DNA from: an uncultured Chthonomonas sp.
GTDB taxonomy: Bacteria; Armatimonadota; Chthonomonadetes; Chthonomonadales; CAJBBX01
DNA: 64,000 nucleotides
Direction: 5' to 3'
Assembly: GCA_903951425.1 (NCBI GenBank)
Contig: CAJBBX010000156.1
Span: forward strand, 1 to 64,000
Every line of letters starts with the position of its first letter. Positions within the stretch are counted from its first letter, which is position 1. The notes beneath the pieces are model-generated. The model made no database searches. It saw only the letters and a list, made by a program, of their open reading frames with translations, and was not told where the DNA came from. Below are positions 15,102 to 44,758 of this stretch, piece by piece. The translations under genes were made by a program, and so were the position numbers.

Positions 15102-16274
15102 CTATCGTCCCAGCTCGACGCACCGCCTGCGGTAGTGGCGGTAGTTGCTGAGGCTCACCTCTTCGGGCACCCCGTGATCGCAGGTGGGTATGTAGCCGCC
15201 CCGCTCGCGCATGGCGGGCAAGATGCGCTCCACCATCTCGTCGATCTCCTCGGTGGGTCGGGCCAGGACCCGCTTGTCGATGCCGCCGAACATGACCAGG
15301 TCGGGGTACCTGCGGCTGATCTCCACCACGTCGCAACCCGAGGCCACCTCGAACGGCGACATCACGTCCATGCCGATCTCGCGGTAGACGTCGATGGCTG
15401 CACGGGCATCGCCGTCGGTATCGATCTGCAGGTAGAGGTGGCGGCTCTGGTCGATCTGCCGTGCGCGGATGTTGTTCAGCAGCCGCCGGTAGTAGGGGAG
15501 GAGGAAGCGGCGCATCATGGCCGGTGAGATGAGCAGGCCGTGGTTGTAGCAGATGTCCTCGGCCAGGTAGACCTCGTCCAGCGTAACGTGGGCCTGGTGC
15601 CACGAGATGACGCGGTCCGCCAGGTCCAGCCATGCCTGCATGCAGGCGTGGATCAACTCGGGCTCATCGATGAACTTCAGCAGCAGGTCGCCGGGGCCAA
15701 TCAGGCTCCGCAGGTACATGTAGCCGCCGATGAGGTTCTGCTGCACCATCATGCCCTGCCCTGCGAGCCGCTTGACGGCCTCCATCCGCTCGTCGAAGCC
15801 TTCACGGCGCTCGGGGGAGTCGGGGTCCATGCGCCACTTCACGTCGCGGAGCCAAGTCGCCATGTCCTTGACCGGGTGGTCCATGTACTCGGGCATGAAG
15901 CCGTTGCGGCGCCCCTTAAAGTAGAGGACGTGCCGCCCGGCGAAGTCCTGCACCACCTCGTGGTCGCCCCGGTCCTCCAGAACCCTCTCCTCGAAGAAGG
16001 GCACGAAGGCCGCCTCGCACCAGCCCAGCTGGCCCAAGGAGACTGCGCCGCCGGCCTCGTAGCTGAACTCCTCGGCGAAGTTGGCGTCGCGTGAGAGGCC
16101 CTCTTCGAACCAGCGGTCGAGGCAGTAGTAGCCGAACTCGCGGCGCACCAGGGGCATCCCGGGCGTCATGGCGTACGTATCGCGCAGGCGGCGGGCGGCC
16201 TCGCACATCCGCTCGCGCGGGACCATGGCGTGGATGCCGTCGGCGGGTGGCGTGGTCGTCGTCTGGCTCTCCAT
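15102..16274 (-). CDS. Uroporphyrinogen decarboxylase-like (URO-D superfamily) protein
   Basis: The 390-residue protein starts at ATG 16274 with AAGGAGG upstream. It has the C-terminal half of the URO-D TIM barrel: EVYLAEDICYNHGLLISPAMMRRFLLPYYRRL, LQIDTDGDARAAI, MSPFEVASGCDV, VMFGGIDKR and GGYIPTCDHGVP. These align with the superfamily that includes HemE and the corrinoid methyltransferases MtaA/CmuA. The HxC zinc site of the methyltransferases is not evident; the equivalent strand reads QIDTDGD. The context is secreted glycosidases and not haem synthesis, so HemE activity is unlikely. A second paralogue lies at 39145-40269. The substrate is unknown. Confidence 0.75.
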   Translation of the reverse strand: MESQTTTTPPADGIHAMVPRERMCEAARRLRDTYAMTPGMPLVRREFGYYCLDRWFEEGLSRDANFAEEFSYEAGGAVSLGQLGWCEAAFVPFFEERVLEDRGDHEVVQDFAGRHVLYFKGRRNGFMPEYMDHPVKDMATWLRDVKWRMDPDSPERREGFDERMEAVKRLAGQGMMVQQNLIGGYMYLRSLIGPGDLLLKFIDEPELIHACMQAWLDLADRVISWHQAHVTLDEVYLAEDICYNHGLLISPAMMRRFLLPYYRRLLNNIRARQIDQSRHLYLQIDTDGDARAAIDVYREIGMDVMSPFEVASGCDVVEISRRYPDLVMFGGIDKRVLARPTEEIDEMVERILPAMRERGGYIPTCDHGVPEEVSLSNYRHYRRRCVELGR

Positions 16275-34287: not shown

Positions 34288-34917
34288 ATGACCATGCCTG
34301 AAGTCGAGATCCAAAGGACCGTGCTTGCCGAGCTGGCGCCGGGCGAGAAGATTAAGTGGCTGGGCAAGCCCGACCCCGCCCAGTACGCCCGGCAGGCCCT
34401 GCCGATGGTCGTTTTCGGCATTCCATGGACCCTCTTCGCCCTCTTCTGGGAGGGCGGCGCCATCCAGCCTGCGCTTCAGGGGATCGGTCGCGCCGGCGGG
34501 CCGGGCATGGCCTTCTCGATCATGTTTCCGCTCTTCGGCCTGCCCTTCATCGGCATCGGCATCGGCATGCTCACCTCGCCGATCTGGTACCGCCGCAAGG
34601 CCGCCAATACGATCTACGCCGTCACCGATCGTCGAGCCCTCATCATTGAGGACGCCGGCCGTCGAACGGTGCAGAGCTTCGATCGTTCCGTCATCGCGCA
34701 TCTGACCCGAAACGAGCGTGGCGACGGTTCGGGCAATCTGCTCTTCGGGCCTGACAACAACCTCGAGTGGGCTTACCGCCGCCGCACCTCAGGCAGCCGA
34801 ACGACCCCCGGCTTCTACGGCATCCGGACCGTCCGCCAGGTGGAGCAGCTCCTGCGCGAAACGCTGGATGCCCGGCCCGCCCTTGAACGCGACAACGACG
34901 GCCCCACTGCGCCCTGA
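34288..34917 (+). CDS. Small membrane protein with bacterial PH-like domain
   Basis: The 209-residue protein has ELAPGEKIKWLGKPDP at the N-terminus, then two hydrophobic helices (MVVFGIPWTLFALFW; AFSIMFPLFGLPFIGIGIGML). The rest carries NTIYAVTDRRALIIEDAGRRTVQSFD, the pattern of bacterial PH-like (bPH/DUF304) domains. It starts at ATG 34288 with AGGAGG and has its own promoter. The function is unknown. It lies 17 bp before a sugar oxidoreductase gene and may be co-transcribed with it. Confidence 0.6.
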   Translation: MTMPEVEIQRTVLAELAPGEKIKWLGKPDPAQYARQALPMVVFGIPWTLFALFWEGGAIQPALQGIGRAGGPGMAFSIMFPLFGLPFIGIGIGMLTSPIWYRRKAANTIYAVTDRRALIIEDAGRRTVQSFDRSVIAHLTRNERGDGSGNLLFGPDNNLEWAYRRRTSGSRTTPGFYGIRTVRQVEQLLRETLDARPALERDNDGPTAP

Positions 34918-34934: not shown

Positions 34935-36071
34935 ATGCAGACGTACCGGATCGGCGTGATCGGCGCCGGCATGATGGGCAAGACGCACTCATGGTGCTGG
35001 CAATCGCTACCCTTCTTCTATGAGAAGCTGCCCTACCGCTGCCTCCTCCATGGTGTGGCCACCTCGCGCATGGCCAGCGCCGGGGCCGCTCGCGACGCCC
35101 TGGGCTTCGCCCGAGCCTATGAGACGCCCGAGGCGCTTATCGCCGATCCGGAGATCGATATCGTCGACATCGCGTCGCCGAACGACGCCCACGCCGACCA
35201 GCTCCTGGCCGCCGCGGCGGTCGGCAAGAAGGTCTACTGCGACAAGCCTCTAACCGGCAGGCTTGACGAGGCTGAGCGGCTTGCCGCGGCCTTGCCCGAC
35301 CCGGTATCCGTCGGCCAGATGGTCTTCCACAACCGATGCCTGCCCGCCACCATCCTCGCCCGCCGCATGTGCGAGGAGGGCCGCTTGGGCGAGATCATCG
35401 GCTTCCGCGGCGCCTACCTCCACGCGGGCAACGTGCCCGAGGGCAAGCCCCTGGCATGGAAGGACAGCCGCGCCATGGGGGCCGGCGTGCTGTACGACCT
35501 GGGCTCGCACCTGGTGGATCTGATCACTTGGATCTGCGGCTCGCCGCTGGCCGAGGTACACGCCCGGCAGGTGACGCTGAACCCGCGCCGCCCATCCCGT
35601 GAGGACCCCTCGCGCTGGGTCGAGCAGGACTCCGACGACATGACGCTCATGTCTGCCCGGCTGGCCTGCGGCTCCGTGGGCTCGCTGGAGTGCTCCAAGA
35701 TCGCCACCGGCGCCATGGATGAGCTCCGTTTCGAGATCCACGGCCGCAAGGGAGCCCTGCGGTTCAACCTCATGGACGCCAACTGGCTGGAGCACTTCGA
35801 CGCCGCCGATCCGGAGATGCCCTACGGCGGCTCGTCCGGCTTCAAGCGCATCGATTGCGTCCGGCGCTATCCCTCGCCGGCGGGCTTCCCCTCGCCGAAG
35901 GCCACGGTCGGCTGGCTCCGGGCGCACCTGCACAGCGTCTACACCTTCATCAGCGCGGTGCACGCGGGCGCGCCGTTCGAGCCGTCCATCCAGCGCGGCA
36001 TCGACCTGGAGCGCATGCTCGCCGCCGTGGAGCGCGCGGCCCGGTCCGGCGCCTCGGAGCGTCTGGCGTGA
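34935..36071 (+). CDS. Gfo/Idh/MocA-family sugar oxidoreductase
   Basis: The 378-residue enzyme has an N-terminal NAD(P)-binding fold (YRIGVIGAGMMGKTH), the family dinucleotide motif in its CDKPL form and a C-terminal catalytic domain with AGVLYDLGSHLVDLI. Such enzymes oxidise or reduce sugars and inositols, or cleave glycosides by redox. It has a GGAGG site nine bases before ATG 34935. The stop codon overlaps the GTG of the GNAT-GH38 gene (GTGA), so the two products are made together and probably act on the same sugar. Confidence 0.88.
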   Translation: MQTYRIGVIGAGMMGKTHSWCWQSLPFFYEKLPYRCLLHGVATSRMASAGAARDALGFARAYETPEALIADPEIDIVDIASPNDAHADQLLAAAAVGKKVYCDKPLTGRLDEAERLAAALPDPVSVGQMVFHNRCLPATILARRMCEEGRLGEIIGFRGAYLHAGNVPEGKPLAWKDSRAMGAGVLYDLGSHLVDLITWICGSPLAEVHARQVTLNPRRPSREDPSRWVEQDSDDMTLMSARLACGSVGSLECSKIATGAMDELRFEIHGRKGALRFNLMDANWLEHFDAADPEMPYGGSSGFKRIDCVRRYPSPAGFPSPKATVGWLRAHLHSVYTFISAVHAGAPFEPSIQRGIDLERMLAAVERAARSGASERLA

Positions 36072-39000
36072 CGGCGCCGGACGCCGCGCGCCATCGGCCT
36101 GCAGTCGCGCTGGAGCCCCTGACCGCTCGCAACGCCGAGGAGATGTCGGCCTACCTCGACGCCCAGGACGGCGGCACGCTCAAGTACTTCCACCCCAAGC
36201 GCACCGACGTCGCGTACATTCGGCGCCTCCTCTCCGGCGACACGGACGGCTTCGTGGTGGCCTTTGGCGCCTGGGCCGACGCCAAGCCCGATGACCCGTC
36301 CGGCCAGGCGCCGATTGTCGATGGGCGGCGCCTCGTGGGCTACATCTGGCTCTTCGAGATGCAGACCGACAGCCCGCTCCTGGGCATCTGCGTGGCCCCG
36401 GGCTGGCGCCGGCAGGGCATTGGGCGCAGTCTGCTGGAGCGGGCCATCGAGTCGGTCTTCCTCTGGGGCAAGCGTGAACTCCGCCTCAGCGTCGATATGG
36501 GCAACGCAGGCGCCATCGACCTGTACAAGAAGCTCGGATTCGTCATCACGCAGGTCGGCGACAGGGAGCGTGTGGGCTACCACTCCATGGCCCTGGACCT
36601 GTCGGCCAGGCATTCGCAGCGCGTGGAGGCAATCCGCCGGCGCTGCGCCCGGACCCGCATCGCGCTGGTGCCCTACACCCACTGCGACTGGGCCTGGGTC
36701 CACACGCGGGCATGGCACGAGCGCCGCTACGCCCTGATCTTCGCCGAGACGCTGGAGATCATGCGGCGCGACCCCGACTACCGCTGGTACATCGACAACT
36801 GGGCCTGCCAGCTCGCTCCGCTGCTCGACCTTCGGCCCGACCTGCTGCCGGATCTGCGCAGCCGTATCGCCGAGGGGCGCATCGCGGTCTGCGGCGGCTA
36901 CGCCAACGTCCGTCCGCACATGGTCGGCGATGAAACCTACGTTCGCAGCCTGCTCATCGGGCGCCGCCTCTTCGGCGAGGCCTTCCCCGAGGCCGACCTG
37001 AGCGTGCAGGCCGACTCGGTCGATGTCGCCACCGGGCACCCGCAATTGCCGCAGCTGCTGCGCCAGGCCGGCTACACCTCGTTGCGCTTCTGGCGGCCCT
37101 TCTCGTCGCTCAGCATCAAGGGCATCCCCGTGGACTTCCGCTGGGAGGGGCTCGATGGCTCGCAGGTACTCGCCTCGCGCGGCGGCTACGGCGGCCTCTT
37201 CGCCCCGGCGGAGGCGCACCGGCCGCTCCTGCAGCCCGAAGCGCTCGAGGCCGATGACATGGCAGAGATGCTCTGGGACGCGGAACTGCGCGAGCGTGCC
37301 TGGCTGGCCCCCACCGAGATGCTCTGGCTCTCACTCGGCTGCGACGATACCCGCCCGCTGCGCACCATCGACGACGCCCCTGCCGACGCCCCGGCATTAG
37401 TCGCCCGATGGTGCGAACTGGGCTTGGGCCAGATCGCCTTCGCCACGCCGGTGGACTACTTCACCGAACTCCGAGCCCGCGCTGACCGCCTGCCGCTGAT
37501 CGCTGGCACGCTGGACCCCTGCGATGTGGCCTACAATGCCGCCTGGAACGGCGAGCGTGGCCTGGCCGTCCAGCGCGTGGGCAACGATGCCCTCCTCACG
37601 CAGGCCGAGGCCGCCGAGGCCCTGGCGTCGCTGGCTCCGGGCGCCGAAACGCCCCCGGACGATCTCGTGCCGCACGAGGCGCTCTGGCGCGACCACCTCC
37701 TCACCTGCGCCCACGCCACCCAGTGGCTCTTCACCGAGGACTTCGCCGAACTCAAGGAGATGGCCGACCGCGTGGGTCTCGAGGCCCGCCGCCTCCGGAC
37801 CGAGGCCCTGCGCGGCCTGGCGCGCGGCGTCCGCCTCCCGCACGATACGCTGGGCGTCGTCTGGAACCCGCTCCCGTGGCGCCGCACCGTGGCCGTGCCG
37901 GTGCAGGTGGCCCGTTACGGCGATGACTGGCCGCTAGAGCTGGTCGACGGCGCCGGACGCCCGCTGCTGGAGCAGACCCTGGGAGCCAAGACGGGCCAGG
38001 GCGGCTACCCCGAGGAGACACGGCTGATCTCGCTGGGAATGCCTCCCATGGGCCTGGCCATGGTGCGCGAGCGGCCCCGCAATGCGGCGGAGGTCATCCC
38101 TGGGCCGGACCACTTCCTCGGGCCGCCCGAAGGCTCCGAGTTGCTCGACCTCGTCCTCCACGATGTGGACTGCCCCGGCGGCCCGCTCCATGTGGGTCCC
38201 ATCACCGCATCGCACACCCCGGTCTGGGGCGACTGGGCGCAGCTTGAGGACGGCCCCGTGCGCCGGCGCACCCGTCTGACCGGCGAGATCGACGGCCTGC
38301 CCCTGACGATGACGTTGGACCAGCACGCCGGCTCGCCGATGCTCGACGCCGAGGTGCGGATCGACTGGCCGGGCCGCGATGGTTTCCTGGCGGCCCGCAC
38401 TCCGTTGCCGCCCGGCGCTCGCCTCTTCGGCGATATCCCGTTCGGGGTGGAACTGAAGGACATCGAGAACGAGCCGTACCTCAAGGATGCTTGGCCCGCC
38501 TGCAACAGCATGGAGCGGTGCCGCGAGGGCCTCTTCTATGCCCGGAGCTTCGTGGCCTGTCAGGCCGACGGGGGAGGGTACGCGCTGATTGGCCGCAACA
38601 CCGACCGGTACTACCGCCGTAGCCCGGATGGCGCTTGGCTGGAGCACCTCCTCCTCAACCGCGTCGTCTCGCTGGACGAGTGGGAGCATCACGTAGAGCC
38701 GTCCACCATCGGTGGCAGGGGACCGCATACGCTCCGCTTCAGCCTGCTGCCCTACGCCGGCACATGGCAGGAGGCGTGCGTACCACGCTTGGCAGCCGAG
38801 GCGCGGGCCGGAGCCGTAGTAGGTCGCCCGGTACGCTCGGCGGGCGCACCGCTCGCTGATGCGGGCCCCGAGCTCTCGGTGGAGCCCGGCTCAGTCCTTG
38901 CCACAGCCGTATGGCGCAGCGCGAACGGCTTCCACGTCCGGTTGCACGAAGCCCACGGCGCACCCGCCGAGTGTGTGGTCCGCCTTCCGTTCGCGCCGGT

Positions 39001-39127
39001 CTCCGTGGAGTGCCTCGACCTGGCAGGCGGGCCGGCTGCGGGTATTGTGCCGGCCCTGCGCGGCTCGGAGGTCCGCTTCTCCCTGCCGCCATGGAAGATC
39101 GTGACCGTCAAGGCGCATCTGGATTAG
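36068..39127 (+). CDS. GNAT N-acetyltransferase fused to GH38 alpha-mannosidase
   Basis: This 1019-residue protein begins at GTG 36068 in a 4-bp overlap with the oxidoreductase. Residues 1-180 are a complete GNAT domain: a YIWLFE beta strand, the acetyl-CoA motif VAPGWRRQGIGRSLLE and the closing strand IDLYKKLGFV. Residues from about 195 are GH38: the metal site H205-x-D207 in YTHCDWAW, and LPQLLRQAGYTSLRFW after D319 of VDVATGHPQLPQ, aligned with the nucleophile of DTFGYSAQLPQ enzymes (the FG is replaced). The beta-rich C-terminal domain is also present. No gap, stop or frame change is seen at the junction, so it looks like a real fusion. I know of no described GNAT-GH38 fusion, but I could not search. 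Confidence 0.8.
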   Translation: MTAPDAARHRPAVALEPLTARNAEEMSAYLDAQDGGTLKYFHPKRTDVAYIRRLLSGDTDGFVVAFGAWADAKPDDPSGQAPIVDGRRLVGYIWLFEMQTDSPLLGICVAPGWRRQGIGRSLLERAIESVFLWGKRELRLSVDMGNAGAIDLYKKLGFVITQVGDRERVGYHSMALDLSARHSQRVEAIRRRCARTRIALVPYTHCDWAWVHTRAWHERRYALIFAETLEIMRRDPDYRWYIDNWACQLAPLLDLRPDLLPDLRSRIAEGRIAVCGGYANVRPHMVGDETYVRSLLIGRRLFGEAFPEADLSVQADSVDVATGHPQLPQLLRQAGYTSLRFWRPFSSLSIKGIPVDFRWEGLDGSQVLASRGGYGGLFAPAEAHRPLLQPEALEADDMAEMLWDAELRERAWLAPTEMLWLSLGCDDTRPLRTIDDAPADAPALVARWCELGLGQIAFATPVDYFTELRARADRLPLIAGTLDPCDVAYNAAWNGERGLAVQRVGNDALLTQAEAAEALASLAPGAETPPDDLVPHEALWRDHLLTCAHATQWLFTEDFAELKEMADRVGLEARRLRTEALRGLARGVRLPHDTLGVVWNPLPWRRTVAVPVQVARYGDDWPLELVDGAGRPLLEQTLGAKTGQGGYPEETRLISLGMPPMGLAMVRERPRNAAEVIPGPDHFLGPPEGSELLDLVLHDVDCPGGPLHVGPITASHTPVWGDWAQLEDGPVRRRTRLTGEIDGLPLTMTLDQHAGSPMLDAEVRIDWPGRDGFLAARTPLPPGARLFGDIPFGVELKDIENEPYLKDAWPACNSMERCREGLFYARSFVACQADGGGYALIGRNTDRYYRRSPDGAWLEHLLLNRVVSLDEWEHHVEPSTIGGRGPHTLRFSLLPYAGTWQEACVPRLAAEARAGAVVGRPVRSAGAPLADAGPELSVEPGSVLATAVWRSANGFHVRLHEAHGAPAECVVRLPFAPVSVECLDLAGGPAAGIVPALRGSEVRFSLPPWKIVTVKAHLD

Positions 39128-39144
39128 CCCCGAGGAGGCCGTCC

Positions 39145-40269
39145 ATGACCGAGCGTGAGCGTTGGCTGGAGACGATGCTGTTCGGCAAGCCCGACCGGGT
39201 GCCCTGGTCGCCGGGCGGTCCCCGCGAGTCGACGCTGCGGGCGTGGCGCACCCAGGGCCTGGCCGAGGGTGAGGACTGGTATGGCCGGCTCCGCGACGAG
39301 GTCGGGTTGCCGCCGTTGGTGCATGAGCCGCGCCCCGCCGTCTGGATCAAGCACACCATGGAGCCCATGTTCCCCGAGGTCGTGCTCGAGGAGCGGGCCG
39401 ATAGCCGCGTCGTGCAGGACTGGAAGGGCAACGTCTGCGAGATATCCAGCGCCTTCGACGTGAGCTACCTCCGCTCGGCCAGGGACTTCGTCACGCGCCG
39501 CTGGATCCGCTGCCCGGTGGAGGGTTGGGCCGACTGGGAGGCGATGAAGCCACGGTATGACCCGCAAGACCCCTCCCGCGTCCCCGCCGACCTGGCGCGG
39601 AACGCCGAAGTCCTTCGCGCGCGCGACCACGTCGTCGGCCTCCACGTCCACGGTCCCTTCTGGCAGATGCGCGAGTGGATGGGCTTTGAGGGGCTCTGCA
39701 TGGCCTTCATCGAGCAGCCCGACCTGATCGAAGATATGGTGCGATTCTGGACCGAGTACGTGGCCGAGCTGCTCATGCGCGTGGTCCCGCTGGTGCAGCT
39801 TGACTACTTCCACATCTCCGAAGACATGGCCTACAAGGTTAAGCCGATGATCGGCCCGGCCATGTGCCGCCGCTTCCTCATGCCCTGCTGGGCCGCCTGG
39901 GGCGAGGTCATCCGCGCCCACGCGTGTCCGGTCTACCAGGTCGATTCGGACGGCTTCGTGGGTGACCTGATCCCAGTCTGGATGGAGGCCGGCATCAACG
40001 CCACCGATCCGCTGGAGGTGGCCGCCGGCAACGACCTGCCCGCCCTCCGCCGCCGGTTCGGCCGCCAAATCGCCTACTGCGGCGGCGTCGACAAGCGCTG
40101 CATGGCCAGGGGAGGGAAGAGCCTGCGCGAGGAGCTAGCGCGCCTGACGCCCGTGGTCCACAACGGCGGCTATATCCCCAGTTGCGACCACGGCGTCCCG
40201 CCGGACATCAACTGGCCCAACTTCGTGGACTACGCGCGCCAACTAGCGAGGATCACCGGCTGGCTCTAG
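39145..40269 (+). CDS. Uroporphyrinogen decarboxylase-like (URO-D superfamily) protein
   Basis: The 374-residue protein begins at ATG 39145 after GAGGAGG, 17 bp behind the GNAT-GH38 gene. It opens with ERERWLETMLFGKPDRVPWSPGG, the usual N-terminus of this URO-D-like branch, and ends with VYQVDSDGFVGDL, TDPLEVAAGNDL, AYCGGVDKR and GGYIPSCDHGVPPDI. These segments align with the paralogue at 15102-16274. As there, the HxC of the corrinoid methyltransferases is replaced by an acidic D-x-DG motif. It closes the run of carbohydrate genes from 34288. The role is not known. Confidence 0.78.
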   Translation: MTERERWLETMLFGKPDRVPWSPGGPRESTLRAWRTQGLAEGEDWYGRLRDEVGLPPLVHEPRPAVWIKHTMEPMFPEVVLEERADSRVVQDWKGNVCEISSAFDVSYLRSARDFVTRRWIRCPVEGWADWEAMKPRYDPQDPSRVPADLARNAEVLRARDHVVGLHVHGPFWQMREWMGFEGLCMAFIEQPDLIEDMVRFWTEYVAELLMRVVPLVQLDYFHISEDMAYKVKPMIGPAMCRRFLMPCWAAWGEVIRAHACPVYQVDSDGFVGDLIPVWMEAGINATDPLEVAAGNDLPALRRRFGRQIAYCGGVDKRCMARGGKSLREELARLTPVVHNGGYIPSCDHGVPPDINWPNFVDYARQLARITGWL

Positions 40270-40416: not shown

Positions 40417-43400
40417 CTACGGCACCACGTTGAATGGGGTGCTGCCCGTCGTGGCTACGTACCAGGTGTCGCCGGCGAACTCTGCCGTGGCGGTGTGCGC
40501 CCCAATCGGCTCGCCTGCGGGGATCGACCAGTTCACCGTCGCCCATCCGTCGGCCGCCACGTTGGCCGAGCCGATGACCGAGCCGTTTACCTTGAACGTG
40601 ACGGACTTGCCGGGCTGGATCACGTAGTCGGGTAGGCTTCGCACGTAGGCCTTGAGCGGGTGGGTCGTGCCCACCTTGCCCGACCGAACATAGGTCCACA
40701 GGTAGAGGTTGCCCTGAAGCGCCCCGAGTTTGCCTGTGTTGGACGAGGCCGGGTAGCCCGCGTTGCCGGCCCAACTGGCGCCGATAACGCGGTTGCCCGC
40801 GCCCGTCCCTTCCGGGACCGTGTACCCGAACGAGATGTATCCGCTGGCGTTGGTCGCCTGCGACCCCACTGAAGTACCGTCCACGGTCATCGACATCGTC
40901 TTGCCCGGGATGATCGCGTTGGCAAGGGTGTATAGGTAGGCCTTCAGCACGGTGTAGGTCTTGATTTTCACGTTTAGCCGGTCGACCACATAGACCTTGG
41001 TGGCCACGCTGGTTGAGGTGAGCGTGGCGGAGCCTTCGCACGGGTCGTAGGTGGTATCGCCGCCGAACCGCGCCGTGATGGCCCTGCTCGCCGCGCCGTC
41101 GGTTATGGCCCAGTTAAGCACGGCCTCGCCCGCCGCCGATGTGGTCGCCGAACCCACCGTCGTGCCCGCCACGGCGAAGGTCACCGTGCGGCCGGAGAGC
41201 CAGGCGTTGTCGCTGGTCCGTTTCAGGTATCCCTTCAGCGTGACCGTGGTCGTGTAGATGCCGGTCCGATCGACCGTGTACATGGAGGTCGGTGCCCCGA
41301 CGGCCGTCAGCGTGGCGCTTCCGGTACTCGCCGCGTAGCCGCCGCCACCCGCGAATGCGGCGTCGATGGCATGCGTTCCGGCCGCAACCGCGATGGTGTA
41401 GCTGTAGTTCGCCACTCCCGCCGCGTCGGTGATGCCCGACCCGACGCTCGTACCCGCCACCTTGAAGCCCACCGTCTGCCCGGCGATGGCGGCGCCATTG
41501 GACGTCCTGGTCAGCGTGGCGCTCAGGCTCACCGCCGCGCCGGTGTTGCCGGTCCGATCCGCCACCGTCAGCTTGGACGCGGTCTGCGGCAGGCTCAGCG
41601 TGCCCGTGCCGCTGGAGGCCAGGAAGATGCCCTCGCCCAGGAAGTCGGCCTTGATCGGATGCGACGCTACGCCGGCGGGCACGACATAGATGACTGTTGC
41701 GACGCCGGTTGCGTTGGTGTAGGCGCTACCGATGACGCTACCGTCAACGAGGAACTGGATCGGCTCGTAGTCGACGATGGCGTTGGTGTCGGCCCGGCGC
41801 AGCGTGGCGGTCAGGCGCGCATTGGTGCCGGCGCCCGCGGTCACGTCGGGTACCGTCAGCGTCGTGGCCACACCCAGGATGTTGAAGTCGATGCCCGGCA
41901 GGTCGCAACCGGCGGTCACGGGCAATGACAGGATCGTTTGGCTATCGCCCTGGAATGTCGCTCGCACGGTATACGTGCCCGGCGCGATGTTGGTGAACCT
42001 GTAGCCGCCGTCAGCGCGCGTACTGGTGGTCTGGATCGTGCCGACGGTCGGGATCGCCTTCACTGTGGCGTTGGCCGCCGGCGAGCCCTTGTACTGGACC
42101 ACTCCGACCAGACCGCCCACCGAATCGGCGCGCGGGTTCGGGTTGCTGGTCAGATTCAGCGTGTTGTATACGTGCATCAGCCCGTAGCCGTAGTACTGGT
42201 TCCATCCGCCGCTGAAGTCGGATGCGCGCTGCAGGGCCTGCCATGTCTGGATGATGGTGGCCGGCGTCCGCGGCAGTCCCTTCTGACCGATGTAGAGCGC
42301 CGCCAGCCCGGCGACCTGCGGCGAGGCCATGGAGGTGCCCATCAGGTACTCGTAGTTCATGGCGGCTTCAGCGTCGTCGTTCAGGGTGCAGTGGTAGGTC
42401 GGCATGGTGCTGTAGACGCCCAGCAGCCACATGATGTCGTAGTCAAAGTCGCCGCCGGGCGCCGTGATGGCCACCTGCTCGCCGTAGTTCGAGTAGGACG
42501 CGAGGCTGGTTCGCGAGCAGGCGGAAACGGCAAAGACGCGGCTCAGGCAGGCCGGGTAGTTGGGCGTGCTGAAGGTGCCGTCGTTGCCGATGGCCGCGAC
42601 GCACATCATGCCTCTGTACCAAGCGTAGTTGATCGCGTCCTGCTCGGCCTGCGAGTACATGTAGCCGCCCAGCGAGAGGTTGCAGACCTGCGCCCCGGCG
42701 TCTGCCGCGTAGACGATGCCCGCAGCGATGTCGGTCTCGTAACCCATGCCGTCGGCGGTGACCACCTTGATCGAGATGACGTCGGCGTTGTAGCCCACGC
42801 CCACGGTGCCTACCGCGTTGTTTGTAGCGGCCGCAGCGATCCCGGTGACGTGCGTCCCGTGGCCGTACTCATCCCATGCGTCCGTGTCAACCACGCCGGT
42901 GATGATGGAGCGGTCCAGCGGCCGCAGGAGTTGGCCACCGGCGGCCACCGCCGATCCCGTACCGCCGGCGTTGATGAAGTCCGGATGGTCGTAGTCAATG
43001 CCGGAGTCAACCACAGCCAGCAGCACCCGGTTGGTCCCCTTGGCCACGGAGGAGCTGTAGTACTTGTTCGGCCAGATGCTCCACCCCGCCACGTTCTCGG
43101 TCATGTGGGAGTCCCACTTGTACCATGTGTAGATCTCGGGGTCGGTGGTGATATTGTGATCATAGTCGGTGTAGGCGGGGTCGTTCGGGTCAGCCACGAG
43201 CGGGTAGCGGATGGCCAGCGGCTCGATGTAGAGCACGTCCGGGCTACGGCGCAGCGCCTCGACGGTGGCCGGGTCCTCGATGCGCAACCGCTGGATATGC
43301 AGCTGCGGAATCGCGGAGATGACCCGGACCTGCGGGCTCTGCACCATCGCCGCGCGGCCGGTCTGCCACGCCTTGGCGCGGAAGCGCACGGCGTACTCGT

Positions 43401-43617
43401 GGGGCACGACCGCGGGCCGGTGGGCGGCCAGGCGCAGGGGCTCTCGGAAGTAGCGTGTGCCGCCGGCAGCCAACCGGGCCAGCTCGCGCCGCGCCTCCTG
43501 CGCCTCCGGCGAAAGGGGAACCGGCATCTTTAGCCGCTGTGCGTTCGATTGGGAGCAGACGCTCACGAACAGGACGGCTGCTGCCGCCTGCCAGGAAGAT
43601 CGGTTGTGCAACACCAT
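40417..43617 (-). CDS. Secreted subtilisin-like protease with five Ig-like repeats
   Basis: The 1066-residue preproprotein starts at ATG 43617 (GGAGGG nine bases upstream) with a signal peptide (SSWQAAAAVLFVSVCSQSNAQ). A propeptide of about 130 residues precedes the S8 domain, whose triad is D204 (AVVDSGIDYDHPDF), H253 (GHGTHVTGIAA) and S429 (GTSMASPQVAG). After the catalytic domain comes a carboxypeptidase-regulatory-like beta domain (ADGGYRFTNIAPGTYTVRATF), then five Ig-like repeats of about 95 residues. Each repeat has a V-D-R-T-like opening, a TFxVxGTxVGS strand and a closing AxFxGxxxYxxSTG strand. No cell-wall anchor or sorting signal is visible. A strong terminator follows. Confidence 0.92.
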   Translation of the reverse strand: MVLHNRSSWQAAAAVLFVSVCSQSNAQRLKMPVPLSPEAQEARRELARLAAGGTRYFREPLRLAAHRPAVVPHEYAVRFRAKAWQTGRAAMVQSPQVRVISAIPQLHIQRLRIEDPATVEALRRSPDVLYIEPLAIRYPLVADPNDPAYTDYDHNITTDPEIYTWYKWDSHMTENVAGWSIWPNKYYSSSVAKGTNRVLLAVVDSGIDYDHPDFINAGGTGSAVAAGGQLLRPLDRSIITGVVDTDAWDEYGHGTHVTGIAAAATNNAVGTVGVGYNADVISIKVVTADGMGYETDIAAGIVYAADAGAQVCNLSLGGYMYSQAEQDAINYAWYRGMMCVAAIGNDGTFSTPNYPACLSRVFAVSACSRTSLASYSNYGEQVAITAPGGDFDYDIMWLLGVYSTMPTYHCTLNDDAEAAMNYEYLMGTSMASPQVAGLAALYIGQKGLPRTPATIIQTWQALQRASDFSGGWNQYYGYGLMHVYNTLNLTSNPNPRADSVGGLVGVVQYKGSPAANATVKAIPTVGTIQTTSTRADGGYRFTNIAPGTYTVRATFQGDSQTILSLPVTAGCDLPGIDFNILGVATTLTVPDVTAGAGTNARLTATLRRADTNAIVDYEPIQFLVDGSVIGSAYTNATGVATVIYVVPAGVASHPIKADFLGEGIFLASSGTGTLSLPQTASKLTVADRTGNTGAAVSLSATLTRTSNGAAIAGQTVGFKVAGTSVGSGITDAAGVANYSYTIAVAAGTHAIDAAFAGGGGYAASTGSATLTAVGAPTSMYTVDRTGIYTTTVTLKGYLKRTSDNAWLSGRTVTFAVAGTTVGSATTSAAGEAVLNWAITDGAASRAITARFGGDTTYDPCEGSATLTSTSVATKVYVVDRLNVKIKTYTVLKAYLYTLANAIIPGKTMSMTVDGTSVGSQATNASGYISFGYTVPEGTGAGNRVIGASWAGNAGYPASSNTGKLGALQGNLYLWTYVRSGKVGTTHPLKAYVRSLPDYVIQPGKSVTFKVNGSVIGSANVAADGWATVNWSIPAGEPIGAHTATAEFAGDTWYVATTGSTPFNVVP

Positions 43618-43740
43618 CGAAAGGCCCTCCGGCATGGTGATACGGATGCGGCGGCAAGGCGCCCCTGCATCACTCTCAAGACGGGCCGTCGGGCGGCGTT
43701 GTTCCCCGGACCGGGCCCGCCTTCGCCGGGCGGAACGGCA

Positions 43741-43776
43741 AAGGGCGCCGATCCCATCGCGGGGGTCGGCGCCCTT
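43741..43776 (-). terminator. Hairpin terminator after the aldolase gene
   Basis: AAGGGCGCCGA (43741-43751) and TCGGCGCCCTT (43766-43776) form a perfect 11-bp stem with a 14-base loop, about 30 bp past the aldolase stop on the minus strand. Only a short TTTGCCG follows, so it is a modest intrinsic terminator. It separates the aldolase from the subtilase gene. Confidence 0.6.
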
Positions 43777-43804
43777 GGACCTTCGGACTGGTTCCGGCCG
43801 GAGC

Positions 43805-44758
43805 TTATTTGCTCCCGACGAGCGCCGTGGCCGCCTCAAGCTGCCCTGCCGAGCCCAGGAGCTCGTTCCGGCTGGCGATGAAGTCCGCGTAGGCCGGCAT
43901 GAAAAGCTTGCCGGGGTCGCGCAGGTCGAACTTCTCGGGCTTGTCGCGGAAGAACTCGCGGTGGACGCGGCACCAGACCAGGCGGCCGTCGGTGTCGATG
44001 TTGATCTTGCAGACGCCCTTCTGGGCCGCCGGCAGGTACTCGGCCGGGTTCACGCCCTTGGCGCCGCGCATGGCGCCGCCGGCGGCGTTGATCCGCTCGA
44101 CTTCGTCCTGAGGCACCGACGAGGAGCCATGCATGACCAATGGGAAACCCGGGCAAAGGCGCTGGATCTCCTCGATGACCTCGAAGTGGAGGCCCTGGCT
44201 GCCGGAGAACTTGAACGCGCCATGGCTGGTGCCGATGGCGCAGGCCAGGCTGTCGCAGCCTGAGCGCTCGATGAACTCCTTGGCCTCGGTCGGGTTCGTC
44301 AGCTTGGCATCGGCCTCGGCCACGGAGACGTGCTCCTCGACGCCGCCCAACTGGCCCAGCTCCGCCTCGACGGTGATGCCCTTCGGGTGGGCCGCATCTG
44401 CCACGCGCTTGGTCGCCGCGATGTTCTCCTCGAAGGAGAGGTGCGAGCCGTCGATCATCACGGAGCTGTAGAAGCCGCTCTCGATGCAGTCGTAGCAGGT
44501 CTGCTCGTCGCCGTGGTCCAGATGCACCGCGAAAAGGGCATCCGGCCAGATCTGGTCGGCCGCGCGGATGATCGCCTCGAGCATCAACTTGTTGGTGTAC
44601 GAGCGGGCGCCCTTGCTGATCTGGATGATGAACGGCGCCTTGGACGCCATGTTCCCCTGGAAGAGGCCCATGGCCTGCTCCAGATTGTTGATGTTGTACG
44701 CCCCAAGGGCATACTTGCCGTACGCATGCTCGAATAGCGCGCGGGTCGAAACGATCAC
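43805..44758 (-). CDS. fba: Class II fructose-bisphosphate aldolase
   Basis: The zinc-dependent enzyme cleaves fructose-1,6-bisphosphate (or a tagatose relative) in glycolysis and gluconeogenesis. The 317-residue sequence has GAYNINNLEQ, the zinc motif VHLDHGDEQTCYDCI, EAELGQLGGVEE, AIGTSHGAFKFSG with a metal His, LVMHGSSSVP and KINIDTDGRLVWCRVHREFF, of typical family length. The start is GTG 44758 with GGGAGG six bases upstream. It is a single-gene unit with a hairpin after it. Specificity for fructose or tagatose bisphosphate cannot be read by eye. Confidence 0.95.
   Translation of the reverse strand: MIVSTRALFEHAYGKYALGAYNINNLEQAMGLFQGNMASKAPFIIQISKGARSYTNKLMLEAIIRAADQIWPDALFAVHLDHGDEQTCYDCIESGFYSSVMIDGSHLSFEENIAATKRVADAAHPKGITVEAELGQLGGVEEHVSVAEADAKLTNPTEAKEFIERSGCDSLACAIGTSHGAFKFSGSQGLHFEVIEEIQRLCPGFPLVMHGSSSVPQDEVERINAAGGAMRGAKGVNPAEYLPAAQKGVCKINIDTDGRLVWCRVHREFFRDKPEKFDLRDPGKLFMPAYADFIASRNELLGSAGQLEAATALVGSK

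Follow-up and report, generated by a model that had tools for sequence, protein, structure and literature searches.

A conserved fusion of a GNAT acetyltransferase to a GH38-fold hydrolase in Armatimonadota, with a possible place in sugar catabolism

A gene of an uncultured Chthonomonas sp. (Armatimonadota; Chthonomonadales, judging by the nearest named relatives) joins, in a single reading frame, an N-terminal GNAT acetyltransferase domain to a full-length C-terminal GH38-fold hydrolase, and this fusion is real and conserved. The gene lies on the plus strand of the window, which is the whole 64,000-nucleotide stretch that was analysed (contig CAJBBX010000156.1, positions 1 to 64,000). A first-pass annotation had described it as a GNAT domain joined in frame to an alpha-mannosidase and overlapping a sugar oxidoreductase by 4 bp. 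The joining and the overlap are both borne out: the open reading frame begins with a GTG at 36068, stays open through 1019 codons and stops at 39127, and its first bases (GTGA) are shared with the oxidoreductase gene, which stops at 36071. The mannosidase label is not secured (see below).

Both domains exceed their Pfam cut-offs. GNAT families match residues 83-159, among them Acetyltransf_1 (PF00583) at residues 83-158 (E 3e-14, 53.6 bits against a cut-off of 20.7), and Glyco_hydro_38N (PF01074) matches residues 198-470 (E 4e-21, 76 bits against 25); a weak match to Glyco_hydro38C2, the GH38 C-terminal sandwich, covers residues 946-1014 slightly under its cut-off. An AlphaFold2 (AF2) model of the fusion protein, made from a 28-row alignment, is confident, with a pLDDT of 87 and a pTM of 0.88. 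In Foldseek searches this model matches solved GH38 enzymes across almost their entire length, including SpGH38 of Streptococcus pyogenes (2wyi; E 7e-37, TM 0.71 by target length) with all domains covered, and the GNAT half resembles SpeG-type GNATs (TM about 0.7 by target length). The gene and its parts are as follows.

36068..39127, plus strand: gene for the GNAT-GH38 fusion protein of 1019 aa, starting with GTG (uninterrupted frame, Pfam matches, AF2 model, 11 homologous fusions)
36101..36601, plus strand: GNAT acetyltransferase domain, residues about 12-178 (PF00583, Foldseek, dN/dS 0.14-0.17)
36407..36424, plus strand: acetyl-CoA P-loop RRQGIG, residues 114-119 (alignment of fused GNATs)
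36602..36649, plus strand: linker, residues about 179-194, predicted helical (AF2 model; stop-free in all homologues)
36650..39124, plus strand: GH38-fold hydrolase, residues 195-1019, with catalytic barrel, helical bundle and beta domains (PF01074, Foldseek)
36680..36688, plus strand: zinc ligands H205 and D207 (HxD), equivalent to H13/D15 of SpGH38 (invariant 28/28)
37022..37024, plus strand: nucleophile and zinc ligand D319, equivalent to D125 of SpGH38 (invariant 28/28)
37028..37030, plus strand: A321 where SpGH38 has the mannose-positioning F127 (A/G/S/T/C in 28/28)
37343..37345, plus strand: general acid/base D426, equivalent to D232 of SpGH38 (invariant 28/28)
37712..37717, plus strand: zinc ligand H549 and, next to it, A550 (both 28/28), at the positions of H351-D352 in SpGH38

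The same in-frame fusion was found in 10 of 291 Armatimonadota genomes at 34-91% identity (91 and 88% within the genus, 46-50% in G007, G009, G011 and G040, and 34-38% in G043, G056 and G216), and also in one Kiritimatiellota metagenome-assembled genome (MAG; L035). None of these 11 independently assembled genomes has a stop at the junction (residues about 178-198, 36600-36660), and nothing was found in favour of an assembly or sequencing artefact that joined two genes, which is thus practically excluded. The first-pass annotation had allowed that a sequencing error might have removed such a stop, or that homologues might always be two separate genes; neither is the case, the unfused GH38 homologues simply lacking a GNAT. 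Within the genus, the ratio of nonsynonymous to synonymous substitution rates (dN/dS) is similarly low for the GNAT (0.14-0.17) and GH38 (0.16-0.18) parts, arguing that both are maintained by purifying selection.

The catalytic apparatus of the GH38 half can be compared with that of SpGH38, in which zinc is held by H13, D15, D125 and H351, D125 is the nucleophile, D232 is the acid/base, and F127 and D352 help hold the sugar (PMC2815779). The zinc ligands map to H205, D207, D319 and H549 of the fusion protein, and these residues, like the nucleophile D319 and the acid/base D426, are invariant in all 28 aligned members of the clade. Together with the fold and the Pfam match, this places the protein within GH38. 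The two mannose-contact residues of SpGH38 are missing: the D352 position is Ala in all 28 rows, never Asp, and the F127 position is Ala, Gly, Ser, Thr or Cys in all 28, never Phe. Several ordinary GH38 paralogues of Armatimonadota retain both PDxFG and HD. Zinc-dependent, retaining-type glycosidase chemistry is therefore to be expected of the GH38 half, and mannose specificity is not. The first-pass label thus holds for family and chemistry and falters on the substrate, which may not be a plain mannoside. The unusual sugar pocket suggests that the enzyme probably acts on an undescribed, perhaps amino-containing, sugar.

The GNAT half retains a P-loop that fits the acetyl-CoA-binding pattern Q/R-x-x-G-x-G/A, and none of the 10 aligned fused GNATs departs from G117 and G119 of RRQGIG. 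Two further features of the subfamily, an FHP motif and one Cys, are likewise invariant. The domain is apparently active as an acetyltransferase.

The GH38 clade to which the fusion belongs is mostly free of GNAT domains, with unfused members in 18 other Armatimonadota genomes, in Omnitrophota, in Desantisbacteria and in others. In the flanks examined, no separate GNAT of the fused family adjoins an unfused GH38 gene, and a Rosetta-stone split of this kind was rejected. Trees of both domains suggest that a GNAT was joined to GH38 more than once: the fused rows require at least two label changes on the GH38 tree, and a single clade of fused GNATs apart from stand-alone copies is rejected on the GNAT tree (approximately unbiased test, p-AU 0.007, to be read with caution because the domain is short; the tree omits the GNAT row from L081). 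The tree data would fit either repeated joining or a single joining followed by losses and replacement, and either history points to a functional tie between the two domains. Stand-alone copies of the same GNAT subfamily occur in genomes that carry the fusion; in three genomes, stand-alone paralogues end apparent branched-chain-amino-acid-type ABC transporter operons (L113 6972-7424, L114 7839-8306 and L117 520-1008).

The oxidoreductase gene that overlaps the fusion also has counterparts beside GH38 genes in other lineages.

34935..36071, plus strand: Gfo/Idh/MocA oxidoreductase, overlapping the fusion gene by 4 bp (PF01408/PF02894)

Its product matches PF01408, PF02894 and PF22725, and so has both the N- and the C-terminal domain of the Gfo/Idh/MocA family. 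When the MocA protein encoded next to an unfused GH38 gene in an Omnitrophota MAG (L044) was searched against the fusion's genome, this gene was the best of 48 matches (272 vs 157 bits). It is likewise the best match of the MocA in the G040 gene cassette, and it is 62-64% identical to the cassette MocA of G040, G009 and G004. On these comparisons the window MocA is the cassette copy and not a random paralogue, which strengthens the link between oxidoreductase and fusion drawn in the first-pass annotation.

The cassette itself is best seen in other genomes. Contiguous genes for a cupin, MocA, an FGGY kinase, a creatininase-family protein and the fusion occur in G040, and for a class III aminotransferase, a cupin, FGGY, a creatininase-family protein and the fusion in G007. 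Around unfused GH38 genes the order is aminotransferase, cupin, creatininase-family, MocA and GH38 in L044, and cupin, aminotransferase, FGGY, creatininase-family and GH38 in G268. Genome G004, which has no fusion-type GH38, carries a class III aminotransferase, a cupin, MocA (64% to that of the window), an FGGY kinase and a creatininase-family gene (L130 3074-10632), followed, as judged by eye, by what is apparently a ribose-type ABC transporter; this resembles a pathway for breaking down an undescribed sugar or cyclitol. A three-step sugar route, as proposed in the first pass, is thus too simple, since elsewhere the cassette comprises six genes or more, and it is scattered in the fusion's genome. 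The gene set is strongly associated with this GH38. Across the 291 Armatimonadota genomes, and uncorrected for kinship, the creatininase-family gene is found in 25 of 28 GH38-positive genomes vs 16 of 263 others (Fisher p 3e-22) and the aminotransferase in 22 of 28 vs 30 of 263 (Fisher p 8e-14); the yardstick, glycerate kinase, is found in 21 of 28 vs 112 of 263. A search of the open literature for creatininase with inositol, or aminotransferase with a cupin, found nothing.

Hints to the acetyl acceptor come from other partners of the same GNAT subfamily. Four genomes (G031, G040, G045 and G058) have it fused to a different domain of about 430 aa (L078 1363-3189, L079 1619-3442, L080 2566-4383 and L082 1804-3642). 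This domain has no Pfam match; a modest AF2 model of it (pLDDT 68) resembles the GH20 N-acetylglucosaminidase GcnA (2epn, E 3e-7). In G040, a GNAT of the subfamily also lies C-terminal to a neutral-ceramidase-like hydrolase (L081 1069-2913), with a ceramidase match under the curated cut-off. Because these GNATs attach to amino-sugar or N-acyl-type hydrolases, and because the cassette has an aminotransferase, the favoured acceptor is an amine carried by a sugar or a cyclitol, and acetylation of an amino sugar by the GNAT half is plausible.

The preferred reading, a tentative one that falls a little short of being probable, is that the fusion protein works in the cytosol as a two-headed enzyme within a route of sugar catabolism. 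Its GH38 half would cleave a small imported glycoside that bears or yields an amine, and its GNAT half would N-acetylate that amino sugar or aminocyclitol, either ahead of the cut or directly after it; the released unit could then be oxidised by MocA, and the cassette would complete the remaining breakdown. Several points weigh against this reading. The absence of a signal peptide from the fusion protein was judged by eye. The GNAT is absent from most relatives of the fusion's GH38, arguing that the core route can run without acetylation, and in the fused member of G040 the LYxxLGF motif is without its usual GNAT tyrosine. In the fusion's genome, orthologues of the creatininase and the aminotransferase sit on other contigs, three G043-type genomes have no close aminotransferase match, and the co-occurrence counts ignore kinship. 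Finally, the cassette members have no established substrate, and the aminotransferase may act on another compound. A narrower proposal is that the GNAT N-acetylates the amine so that GH38, with a pocket no longer built for mannose, can cut. This is unlikely; if true, the protein would be the first self-contained acetylate-then-cleave enzyme, GH38 would gain a new specificity, and the sugar pathway around it, with aminotransferase, MocA and creatininase, would be an undescribed one.

The GH38 half could also belong to an ordinary alpha-mannosidase that releases mannose, with an independent tethered GNAT whose acceptor is some small amine unrelated to it, or which an operon fusion has carried along. 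The family match, the intact catalytic residues and the stand-alone occurrence of the GNAT subfamily in the same genomes are all consistent with this; the replacement of both mannose-contact positions throughout the clade, the recurrent fusion and the shared selection speak against it, and it is judged unlikely. Far less credit is due to a mannosylglycerate-type hydrolase that supplies glycerate kinase. The top NCBIfam GH38 match is indeed mannosylglycerate hydrolase (NF007331), and G040, G043 and G056 each have a glycerate kinase close to the fusion. The profile match scores 41 bits where the cut-off stands at 1138, and no close match to the kinase occurs in the window's genus or in G007, G009 and G011, which makes the route through glycerate kinase a weak candidate and the idea as a whole very improbable.

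Two further alternatives concern the GNAT half. It might be a Pat- or RimI-like protein acetyltransferase that controls how active the glycosidase or its partners are, through lysine or N-terminal acetylation, since RimI profiles match it and Pat GNAT domains are among the structural matches of a related GNAT. The RimI matches are far under their equivalog cut-offs, however, and the invariant FHP and Cys set the fused subfamily apart, so that this role is unlikely. It might instead be non-catalytic and serve assembly or allostery, for which O-GlcNAcase (GH84), a glycosidase with a GNAT-fold pseudo-HAT domain, is a precedent (PMC12494797, PMC3919268). The pseudo-HAT domains have lost the P-loop, whereas G117 and G119 are kept in all 10 fused GNATs and dN/dS is about 0.15, leaving a non-catalytic domain with a slim chance.

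Other genes of the window near the fusion were also considered.

39142..40269, plus strand: URO-D-family protein, downstream of the fusion (PF01208, 24.5 bits)

This gene is conserved only within the genus. It is not orthologous to the URO-D gene in the L040 cassette, whose match in the fusion's genome lies on another contig, and it was therefore rejected as a cassette member; a part for it in the fusion system is doubtful. The window has a second URO-D-family protein (15111-16229), 30% alike to the first, and both lie beside sugar genes. URO-D-like genes adjoin unfused GH38 genes in L037, L039, L040, L041 and L046. Between a GH2 gene and MocA lies a small genus-conserved protein (34288-34917) with no Pfam match and a weak PuhB-like match (24 bits), and 40417-43839 on the minus strand encodes a large subtilisin-like protease with repeated beta-rich C-terminal domains, as judged by eye.

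No description of a GNAT-GH38 fusion was found in the open-access literature searched, in agreement with the first-pass annotation. Within that literature, the kinds of domain are known; what is new, as variants of these, is their combination, together with the changed pocket of GH38. The fusion is important as an apparently active acetyltransferase on a glycosidase, conserved and probably recurrent, since the known GNAT-glycosidase, O-GlcNAcase, has a dead GNAT. The substrate of this GH38 clade is probably misnamed in databases, and the clade is tied to an uncharacterised multi-gene sugar pathway across Armatimonadota, Omnitrophota and Kiritimatiellota.

Among known systems, SpGH38 (2wyh/2wyi) shares the full fold, the zinc ligands, the nucleophile and the acid/base with the fusion protein; it differs in having no GNAT and in its sugar contacts, where the fusion has Ala, and identity is about 15% over the structural match. 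Mannosylglycerate hydrolase of the MngB type is alike as the top curated GH38 profile, with a score far under the cut-off. The GNAT acetyltransferases of the SpeG, PA1377 and 2ge3 types have the fold and the P-loop of the fused GNAT, at low identity, and lack both its own invariant FHP motif and its glycosidase partner. O-GlcNAcase also carries a GNAT-fold domain on a glycosidase, but the GH family is different (GH84, not GH38), the domain order is opposite, with the pseudo-HAT C-terminal, and its GNAT cannot bind acetyl-CoA. In lysosomes, HGSNAT acts with NAGLU, acetylating an amino sugar so that the glycosidase can act; unlike the two halves of the fusion, these are separate and unrelated proteins, and HGSNAT is not a GNAT.

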